Positions 37,150-64,000 of a stretch of DNA of 64,000 bases are shown piece after piece. The notes beneath the pieces were generated by a model. That model was given only the letters and a program-made list of their open reading frames with translations. It was not told where the DNA came from and made no database searches. The DNA comes from Verrucomicrobiia bacterium (GTDB lineage Bacteria > Verrucomicrobiota > Verrucomicrobiia > Limisphaerales > UBA11358), in contig JARLJW010000008.1 in NCBI GenBank assembly GCA_031290985.1, positions 1-64,000 of the forward strand. Direction: 5' to 3'. Positions within the stretch are counted from its first letter, which is position 1; each line of letters starts with the position of its first letter. Both the position numbers and the translations under genes were made by a program.

Positions 37150-37906
37150 GGACGTGTAAATAACGAATGTCGAATGACGAATGCGGTGTTCAGGTTCGAG
37201 TGTTCAGGTCCGTGCAGGGGACGGGCGCACGGCCGCCGGGGGCAGGTAATGAGTTTGTGAGTTAGTGAATGAGTGAGTTTGGGGTCCTTGCGGACGGCCA
37301 CCGGGGGACGGGTTTGGCGAGCATGAAGGGTTGGCGCAGCGTTTTCAGGCAAGAATGCTTTGGTGGCAGGCGAAAGCGGTGTCGCCGCTGCGCTCTGCCA
37401 CCGCAGTCCAAAACACGCTGGCGCGTGGACGGTACTGGCGTACGGGTGCGAGCCGCACGGGCCACCGGGGAACGGGGGAAATGAGCCCGTTTTGGCCGGT
37501 TGGAATTTTGCAAAAAGACCAATAAAAACGCAAAAATTAAACCAAATTAAACCAAGTTAAGGTACTGGCGTACGGCCACCATGTGACGGGTGATGGGTGA
37601 CCTGTGACGAGGAAAAACCGGGCACTGATGCATATATAGAGATAAGAAAAAACAGATAAGAAAAAGGCCGAAAACATTGGGAATCCAAGTAAATCCAACT
37701 AAATCCAACCAAAAAATAAATCACGAATGAATATAGGAGCCCGAGGCCTGAAACGTGCATTCGAGGACGAGAACGAGGACGAGGACGATCCGCCTCTGGG
37801 AAGGGTCCTTGCGCAAGGCCTTGGGTATCAAGGTCCGTTAGCCCTTGTTAGGCTTTGTTAGCCCTTAGAATTTTTAAAAGTACTGGCGTACGGCCACCAG
37901 ATGCCG
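37150..37906. repeat. Repeat island: TACTGGCGTACGGCCACC copies with 6-, 7-, 10- and 14-nt-period micro-arrays
   Basis: Motif at 37291-37313, 37430-37479, 37561-37582, 37880-37900; AATTAAACCA x2 near 37533; heptads AACGAAT GTCGAAT GACGAAT near 37157 and TGTGACG GGTGATG GGTGACC TGTGACG near 37582; decamers GTTAGCCCTT GTTAGGCTTT GTTAGCCCTT near 37835. Confidence 0.85.
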
Positions 37907-62178: not shown

Positions 62179-63579
62179 TTATCTCTTCGCCGCAAACCGC
62201 TGGAGCAGTTTCGCGTGGATGCCGCCAAAGCCGCCGTTGCTGAAGACCACCACCACGTCGCCGCCCTGCACGCACTTGCCCAGATGCGCCACGATGGCGT
62301 CAGCATCCGGCAGGTAGGCCGTCGGCTTGCCGGTCGCGCCGATGGCTTTCATCAGCTTCTCCGGGTCCAGCCGCTCTTCCGGCGCGAGCAGTTCCAGCCG
62401 GGCCACCTGCGCCACCACCACGCCGTCGGCGTCCACAAACGATTCCGCCAGCTCATCCTGAAAGACATTGCGCCGCGTGGTGTTGGTGCGCGGCTCGAAA
62501 ACCGCCCAGATTTTTTCGCGCGGATATTTCAGGCGCAACGCCCGCATCGTTTCCTTGATGGCCGTCGGGTGATGTCCAAAATCATCAATGACCGTCACCC
62601 CGCCCGCGATGCCCTTCACCTCCATGCGCCGCTTGATGCCCTTGAAGGTGTCGAACGCGCCCTGGATCTGCTTGTTGGACAGGCCGCAATGTTTCGCGCA
62701 GGCGACGACCGCCAGCGCGTTGCGGACGTTCAATTCCCCGACGAGGTTCAGATGAAATTTCGTGCTGGGAATCTCAAACTCCGTCGCCGTCGGCCCAAAC
62801 CGCAGGTTGAAGGCCCGCACCGCGTTATTTTCCCCAAGGCCGAATTTTTTCACCGGACAATGGGTCACGTTCAGCAACGGCGCCAGATTGGCGTCGTCCC
62901 CATTGCCCAGCAACAGCCCGTTGCGCGGCACCAGCCGGATGAAGTGCGAAAAGGTCTTCTTGATCGCCGCCAGGTTTTCAAAGATGTCCGCATGGTCAAA
63001 CTCCAGGTTGTTGATGATCGCAACCTCCGGCTGGTAATGGATGAACTTGCTGCGCTTGTCAAAAAAGGCCGTGTCATATTCATCGCCCTCGATGATGAAC
63101 CACTCGCTGTCCGTGAACCGCGCGCCCGCGGAAAAATTGTTCGGGATGCCGCCGATCAGGTAGCTCGGATTGAGCCCGGCATGCTCGAACACCCACGTCA
63201 GCAGCGAGGTCGTCGTGGTCTTGCCGTGCGTGCCGCTGACGACCAACGAGCGCTTGCCGCGGATGAAAAATTCGCGCAACAGGTCCGGCAGCGAGCAGTA
63301 ACGGAGCTTGTGATCGAGCACATATTCCGCCTCGGGATTGCCGCGCGAGATGGCGTTGCCAATGACGACCAGGTCGGGCTTGTGGGCGAGGTTGCGCTCG
63401 TCGTAGCCGTTCATCACGGCGATTTTTTTGGATGCGAGGAACGAAGCCATGGGCTCATAGACATTCTGGTCCGAGCCGGTGACGGAAAAACCCTTGTCAA
63501 GCAGCGCGCCGGCGGCGGAAGCCATCGCCGTGCCGCCGATGCCCGTGAAATGAACTGATTTGATTGCGGATGAAAACAT
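62179..63579 (-). CDS. mpl: UDP-N-acetylmuramate:L-alanyl-gamma-D-glutamyl-meso-diaminopimelate ligase (Mpl)
   Basis: VHFTGIGGTAMA, SGTHGKTTTTSLL, VIGNAISRGNPEAEY, EGDEYDTAFFDKRSKFIHY. Confidence 0.93.
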   Translation of the reverse strand: MFSSAIKSVHFTGIGGTAMASAAGALLDKGFSVTGSDQNVYEPMASFLASKKIAVMNGYDERNLAHKPDLVVIGNAISRGNPEAEYVLDHKLRYCSLPDLLREFFIRGKRSLVVSGTHGKTTTTSLLTWVFEHAGLNPSYLIGGIPNNFSAGARFTDSEWFIIEGDEYDTAFFDKRSKFIHYQPEVAIINNLEFDHADIFENLAAIKKTFSHFIRLVPRNGLLLGNGDDANLAPLLNVTHCPVKKFGLGENNAVRAFNLRFGPTATEFEIPSTKFHLNLVGELNVRNALAVVACAKHCGLSNKQIQGAFDTFKGIKRRMEVKGIAGGVTVIDDFGHHPTAIKETMRALRLKYPREKIWAVFEPRTNTTRRNVFQDELAESFVDADGVVVAQVARLELLAPEERLDPEKLMKAIGATGKPTAYLPDADAIVAHLGKCVQGGDVVVVFSNGGFGGIHAKLLQRFAAKR

Positions 63580-63702
63580 TGCGGCTTAAAAGATAAAACA
63601 TCGGCGGTGGCAGGGAAGAAAAATCCTGCCGGAAACGGGCCGCCCGGAAACGGGCCGCCGGTCGCCGACCCGGCGGGTTGGAGCTTGGGCCTTCCTCGGT
63701 GT

Positions 63703-63758
63703 TTGGATATTGGTCATTGGAAATTTTATCTCGTCATTGGGATATAGGAATTAGTCAT
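63703..63758. repeat. Heptanucleotide-period array TTGGATA TTGGTCA TTGGAAA TTTTATC TCGTCAT TGGGATA TAGGAAT TAGTCAT
   Basis: Eight consecutive 7-mers, overlapping the stop of the adjacent minus-strand ORF. Confidence 0.85.
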
Positions 63759-64000
63759 TGCCCCGGTGGCCGTGTGCCATGGTGGCCGTGCGCAAGCACT
63801 TCCCGCTCAAATTCCAGTCGTTGCTTAAGATGTTCACCGCGCCTCAGCGCCATCACATCATGGCAAAACTCCCGCATCCGGTCCCAAGCTGGCACTTTAT
63901 CATCCCCCAAGCCCTCCGCCGACTTCGCCGCCACCAAATATCGCGCCGTCAGCCACGTCGCCAACGTCTCCGTCATCGGCTCCTTCGCCGCCCCGGCCAA
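63755..64000 (-). CDS. Partial CDS (open at right edge), same apparent family as the left-edge ORF
   Basis: ARYLVAAKSAEGLGDDKVPAWDRMREFCHDVMALRRGEHLKQRLEFEREVL then repeat-derived tail AHGHHGTRPPGQ*. Confidence 0.55.
   Translation of the reverse strand: MAGAAKEPMTETLATWLTARYLVAAKSAEGLGDDKVPAWDRMREFCHDVMALRRGEHLKQRLEFEREVLAHGHHGTRPPGQ

Follow-up and report, generated by a model that had tools for sequence, protein, structure and literature searches.

Stand-alone small-terminase-like genes accompanied by decamer arrays and a probable inverted-repeat operator in a Verrucomicrobium

The gene fragment at the right edge of the DNA analysed here is one of about 20 stand-alone copies of a small terminase (TerS) in this Verrucomicrobium. 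Proteins of this kind occur in phages and in satellites such as SaPIs. Sequence comparison gives good support to the view that the closest relatives of the family are the TerS proteins of Mu-like phages, and equally to the view that the chromosomal stand-alone genes make up one clade separate from phage TerS. Unlike the heptads found at both edges, decamer arrays (at about half of the genes) and a probable inverted-repeat operator (in part of the family) accompany the gene. The identity and the architecture of the unit are well supported, and its function in packaging is inferred by analogy.

The window, meaning the whole stretch of DNA under study, covers bases 1-64000 of the 64,052-bp contig C111, which belongs to a 5.98 Mb genome (94% complete, 113 contigs). 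At its right edge, the minus-strand ORF described in the first-pass annotation proved real: the stop codon lies at 63755-63757, and the frame stays open through 64000 to the contig end at 64,052, so that 98 amino acids are readable (LQEAGTLMKR...HGHHGTRPPGQ). It represents the 3' portion of a TerS-like orphan gene of the Mu gp27 kind (63755-64000 and on to the contig end, minus strand), with a profile match at C111:63791-64048 and at least 12 further paralogues in the same genome. Its C-terminus is motif-derived, as had been noted; the motif count places two copies of the dispersed motif ACGGCCACC within the 3' end of the gene, on the minus strand, at 63765-63773 and 63781-63789. The neighbouring gene (62179-63579, minus strand) is a host gene of the Mur ligase family (PF08245, PF02875, PF01225). 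At the left edge, a second family member occupies positions 1-651 on the plus strand, its 5' end lost at the contig start. Its closest full-length paralogue lies in locus L050, with a nucleotide identity of 75% in the gene and 92% downstream.

The motif ACGGCCACC itself occurs 11 times in the window against 0.94 expected, about 12 times chance, at positions 537, 773, 2741, 23475, 37294, 37572, 37890, 53980, 55710, 63765 and 63781. It frequently stands within a longer GTACGGCCACCGGGG context and is a separate dispersed repeat.

The kinship of the two edge ORFs, previously suggested from alignment by eye, is accepted because a single family profile finds both ends of C111 (E 2.9e-23 on the right, 2.0e-6 on the left); pairwise BLASTP gave E 0.027, too weak to decide. 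A search of the focal genome with the right-edge ORF returned 13 places at E <0.01, the query included, and a five-row profile returned 26 matches, fragments counted, with both C111 ends among them. In several cases a contig stops within the gene and has one gene half in common with another contig (C111/C109, C35/C24); the assembly broke on this repeat, which is why both edge genes are cut off at the contig ends. The full copies follow the consensus M.(.)T...GKIARLP..IRE.LN.RL..GE....LV.WLN.LPEV.AVLA.EFGG..I...NL.EWK.GG...W, succeeded by a helical stretch ending in DVLALRR.EH.AQRLE.ER, and past this stretch the tail is variable and merges into repeats. Truncated copies are also present (L056, L057). 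Ten of 59 relatives carry the family, with 1 to 24 matches each and a patchy distribution, and the GTDB relatives are nearly all labelled as Verrucomicrobia or one of its subgroups. An imperfect palindromic, MITE-like insert (CTATGGCCATTCGG...CCGAATGGCCATAG) was observed directly behind two family genes, at L054:5612-5797 and L044:3906-4100.

The pairing of this gene with a heptad array, on which the first-pass annotation had built its interpretation, did not survive closer analysis. An eight-unit TTGGNNN run is indeed present on the plus strand at 63696-63751, matching 25 of 32 TTGG positions, but it is degenerate, with only three exact in-register units (63703-63720), and it sits just 3' of the stop codon, outside the coding sequence that it had been said to overlap. 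Shuffling puts the run beyond chance (0/5000 shuffles), and nowhere else in the window scores as well as the two edge arrays; Tandem Repeats Finder did not report the right-edge run. The same program reported two plus-strand arrays in the variable 3' end of the left-edge gene, namely NNNCCAA at 421-473 and AACATCC x4.1 at 570-598. The claim that the association is more than an anecdote is not borne out at the genome level: 46 of the 59 relatives contain strict heptad arrays, which are equally common with and without the gene (p=0.46). Among the family genes, period 7 was detected upstream of 3/57 and downstream of 0/49, and a single strict array out of 22 in the focal genome falls in the flanks of its gene copies. 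Loose heptads show a weak local excess near these copies (5 in 13 kb versus none in 219 kb of background that is mostly coding), a co-occurrence that we take to reflect the repeat-rich intergenic DNA in which both lie. Although a partnership between gene and heptads could appeal to the arrays at both window edges and to this modest excess, it was rejected on the genome-level and gene-level counts, and we assign it next to no probability.

Profile matches hint at a phage small terminase. The profile phrog_426 (terminase small subunit) matches four of five orphan members, with a best E of 8e-4, and PF11985 (Phage_Mu_Gp27) matches the orphans weakly, at E 0.05 and under Pfam's cut-off. The phage relatives score E 7e-8 with phrog_426 and E 7e-5 with PF11985, still below Pfam's cut-off. 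A scan of IMG/VR yielded 17 homologues, and the checked viral neighbours comprise a large terminase (TerL), a Mu-type portal (PF06074, up to 1e-59) and a Mu F-like protein. By profiles built from these viral neighbours, TerL and the Mu-type portal stand beside the homologue in 17/17 viral loci versus 3/47 GTDB loci. An AlphaFold model from 66 aligned rows reached a pLDDT of 87.5 and consists of an HTH head, at 98, and a subsequent helical hairpin; it supersedes an earlier model made without an alignment (pLDDT 50). The fold search with this model returned nothing significant (best E 0.03), its weak matches including a DUF3486 protein at 0.08 and small terminases at E about 1-3. Searches of Rfam, of PDB sequences and, by tblastn, of a phage GenBank collection gave no match. 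Mu gp27/DUF3486 (PF11985, PHROG 426) and the family share the HTH head and helical hairpin, and the phage relatives lie directly before TerL, the Mu-type portal and the Mu F protein. The orphan clade differs from the Mu kind in lacking an adjacent TerL or portal, in being multicopy, in its linked decamer arrays and often present operator, and in scoring under Pfam's cut-off.

TerL and portal neighbours are missing at 44/47 GTDB loci and at all copies in the focal genome, which contains no Mu-type portal anywhere and does hold TerLs of other kinds. Pfam matches identify the genes flanking L042, L045 and L051 as host genes, the other flanks being judged by inspection, and neither an integrase nor a capsid-size gene was recognised at the checked copies, which bear no satellite hallmarks. 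The maximum-likelihood tree, built from 76 rows, places 52 orphan rows on one side of a branch with 99/99 support and a length of 0.6, with 18 phage rows apart. The remaining six rows, outliers labelled 'solo' (G011, G021, G041, G043), lie outside and were not counted as orphans; the loci checked among them hold a prophage TerS next to a TerL of another type. Distant relatives also share two TerS-TerL pairs, related to each other and belonging to a different type of prophage, at G000:C15:24660 (L238) and G056:C93 (L239). Recent paralogues in the focal genome show dN/dS of 0.32-0.57 in most recent pairs and are therefore under purifying selection; the left-edge gene, with dN/dS of about 1.0 against its nearest paralogue in L050, may be relaxed or misaligned. 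A literature search found no description of an orphan TerS in this phylum, which is no proof of absence.

A version of the unit with two genes also exists. Several species, from different orders, have a second short gene, B, immediately ahead of the main gene, here termed A (L044, L045, L060, L061, L108, L109, L110, L111, L113, L115, L116). Gene A encodes the HTH head and the helical hairpin; gene B keeps the helical region, and the HTH is missing. In the copies read, the tail of B ends in DEIFG-like residues, comparable to the LMFG tail of phage TerS, and some A proteins likewise keep a phage-TerS-like tail. A B-like ORF stands before a TerL with a broken frame in relative G012, and a prophage TerS before TerL in G009 has its tail in common with B; these two arrangements make a phage of this type the probable source of B. 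The fullest unit in the focal genome, L045, is composed of the inverted-repeat operator/promoter, gene B, a 10-bp direct-repeat array and gene A, in that order. Other copies hold a subset of these parts, and many remnants consist of operator and decamers only.

These data bear on the explanation that the genes are decaying fragments of Mu-like prophages kept by chance in repeat-rich intergenic DNA. The homology to phage TerS, the truncated copies L056 and L057 and the B-like ORF followed by a broken TerL in G012 would all fit ordinary debris. Against such debris, the orphans make up a single clade and do not lie dispersed among phage TerS, most of the recent pairs have a dN/dS far below 1, the checked loci lack other phage genes, and the B-A pairing recurs in several orders together with linked cis elements. 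We consider this explanation very unlikely.

The first of these cis elements is an array of decamers. A period scan, blind to motif and strand, covered 57 orphan genes upstream and 49 downstream. Period 10 was in 141-fold excess upstream of the start (9/57 genes) and in 185-fold excess downstream of the stop (9/49 genes), and every other period was confined to at most three genes. Nearly all period-10 arrays fit one motif family, RRTCMRRSYN, with variants by subfamily (AATCCGACTN, AATCAAACCN, AATCAAGGTN, GGTCAAACCN). By motif count, a decamer array is present at the start or stop of 27/57 genes in sense orientation, of 3 in antisense orientation and of 0/12 phage TerS genes. Decamer density at the genes is about 400 times background, a figure that is partly circular, as the motif was defined partly on these loci and then counted. 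In low-copy genomes, the few arrays often lie at the gene and on its strand (3/4 arrays in G056, 1/1 in G026, 1/2 in G012), but 0/8 do so in G033. Across genomes, decamer matches number 84 in the focal genome, 37 in G008 and 8 in G033, and 0-1 in gene-less genomes with one exception (p=3e-6). In IMG/VR, decamers and the inverted repeat occur in 2 and 6 contigs, respectively, of 2.9 million, and none of these contigs contains a TerS of the family.

Within the window, a decamer array of the gene-linked family (AATCCAAGTA AATCCAACTA AATCCAACCA) was located by repeat and motif scan at 37682-37713 on the plus strand, where the gene is absent. The surrounding intergenic region, 37290-37900, contains ACGGCCACC three times, along with 10-bp arrays of three kinds (AAATTAAACC, AATCCAACTA, GTTAGCCCTT), and looks like a decayed, gene-less unit of the same orphan-TerS family.

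The position of the arrays speaks to the possibility that the protein is a domesticated regulator, i.e., a TerS-derived HTH protein acting as a transcription factor or nucleoid-type protein on decamers both beside its own gene, in autoregulation, and at sites scattered elsewhere, and taking no part in packaging. Decamers stand directly before the start codon in 8/27 array-bearing genes and recur at about 50 further positions across the focal genome, and both the purifying selection and the damage-type operator ahead of part of the family would suit a regulator. In 19/27 genes, however, the array lies at the stop codon and not at a promoter; gene B and some A proteins retain the phage-TerS-like tail, and the patchy, lineage-specific copy number is unlike that of a core regulator. 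We regard a purely regulatory role as rather doubtful.

The second cis element is an inverted repeat, TGGACA-N5-TGTCCA (longer form TTGGACA-N5-TGTCCAA), which is found before gene A or B in several copies of the focal genome and in G008 and G033, and upstream of only part of the family. It occurs 35 times in the focal genome, 62 times in G012, 18 times in G033 and 7 times each in G008 and G056, and 0-4 times in genomes that lack the gene (p=1e-4). Relatives of the latter kind have the repeat in front of a recurring set of genes, which includes those for a Y-family polymerase (PF00817) and for two small conserved proteins; in viral contigs, it is placed before one of these two small proteins and before a recombinase-like gene, in one case 22 bp ahead of the latter. 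Because of the genes it precedes, the Y-family polymerase among them, the inverted repeat is probably a DNA-damage operator. No clear LexA was found in the focal genome, nor any LexA with this operator; the lexA loci of G012 and G033 carry no such repeat upstream, and its candidacy as a LexA operator was accordingly dropped. The two small proteins behind the repeat belong to no Pfam family and read NQLELGFN...IPGA.REVKV and MKLKN.IPQR...NGQ.ELIGG (loci L176, L178, L185, L186 and, in the focal genome, L161; L180, L189, L191); they are candidates for an undescribed damage regulon. On five G056 contigs (C2, C59, C61, C76, C105), the repeat lies at base about 107 from the contig start, where it is probably part of another multicopy element.

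Several sites in the focal genome consist of the operator, decamers and the first codons of gene A with no intact gene, and these are decayed units. Such remnants, retaining the inverted repeat, decamers and a truncated gene start, could also be the trace of a selfish dispersal unit, in which gene and flanking repeats form a small mobile element of REP/RAYT-like logic, and decamers and operators are spread through the genome by its protein or by a trans-acting helper. The amplification in some gene-bearing genomes (35 inverted repeats and 84 decamers in the focal genome, 62 inverted repeats in G012, 37 decamer matches in G008) and the contig ends that fall within the gene are in keeping with this idea. 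Against it, no transposase or nuclease motif was recognised in the protein, and G012 combines its many inverted repeats with only 2 decamer matches. Target-site duplications, which the first-pass annotation had recommended looking for, were not seen around the unit copies, and neither was a constant 3' boundary. The family resembles REP/REPIN-RAYT systems in that a single gene family is tied to dispersed short repeats; it differs in that the orphan protein is no Y1 HUH transposase (no family match; a TerS-like HTH and hairpin) and in that its repeats are phased direct repeats plus an operator. Selfish dispersal on its own is, in our judgement, an unlikely account.

The nearest functional parallels come from phage satellites. 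Operon I of SaPIs, which includes terS, is LexA-controlled (PMC5052747); the SaPI TerS directs packaging of SaPI DNA, and interference with the TerS of the phage comes from other SaPI-encoded proteins (PMC5052747; PMC6739421). Like SaPI operon I (terS, cpmAB and related genes), the unit described here provides a TerS homologue without its own TerL, that of SaPIs residing in an SOS (LexA)-controlled operon. Unlike it, the orphan unit measures about 1-2 kb, is present in many copies per genome and has a different operator sequence. The hallmarks of PICIs and SaPIs (integrase, att sites, replication or capsid-size genes, an island of several kb) were not found, by Pfam for the flanks of L042, L045 and L051 and by inspection for the others, and the unit is for this reason not classed as a SaPI or PICI. 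The Rpp protein of Gram-negative PICIs is related to TerS and forms mixed complexes with the phage TerS, by which the choice of DNA is changed (PMC6739421). As a TerS-related packaging redirector, Rpp offers a role that would suit the headless gene B; no island surrounds the orphan genes. In phage SPP1, the direct repeats of pac extend across promoters and the beginning of the SPP1 terS gene (PMC4737164), whereas the orphan arrays are 10-bp helically phased units of one motif family, located at the gene start or stop.

Since the unit unites, within about 1-2 kb, the same three components (a damage-type operator, a TerS and adjacent phased repeats), we postulate that it diverts or jams packaging by Mu-like phages. 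The preferred reading, to which we give about an even chance, is that of a damage-induced orphan TerS with its own pac-like array that hijacks or jams phage packaging in a manner similar to SaPI operon I. DNA damage or prophage induction would free the operator, in the role suggested by the genes behind the inverted repeat, and TerS A (and B) would be made. A would then assemble as a TerS ring and bind the helically phased decamers beside its own gene, like phage TerS on pac. In this form, A could compete with or redirect the TerL of a co-resident Mu-like phage, so that packaging would be jammed and/or host DNA bearing the element would be packaged. Copies would multiply within genomes and then decay. 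A more tentative proposal sees a minimal chromosomal packaging parasite or phage-defence device, in which damage-induced orphan A (headed) and B (headless) would recognise their own decamers and commandeer or poison the Mu-like TerL, arrays and operators having multiplied on the chromosome.

A TerS clade that spans several Verrucomicrobiota orders and stands solitary on chromosomes, equipped with helically phased arrays and a probable damage-responsive operator, would pare packaging hijack or interference down to one or two genes. The orphan TerS unit further offers a concrete hypothesis to account for some of the short repeats scattered through these genomes. As the subfamilies carry different decamer variants, TerS specificity may perhaps be readable from the adjacent decamers, a prediction that can be tested.
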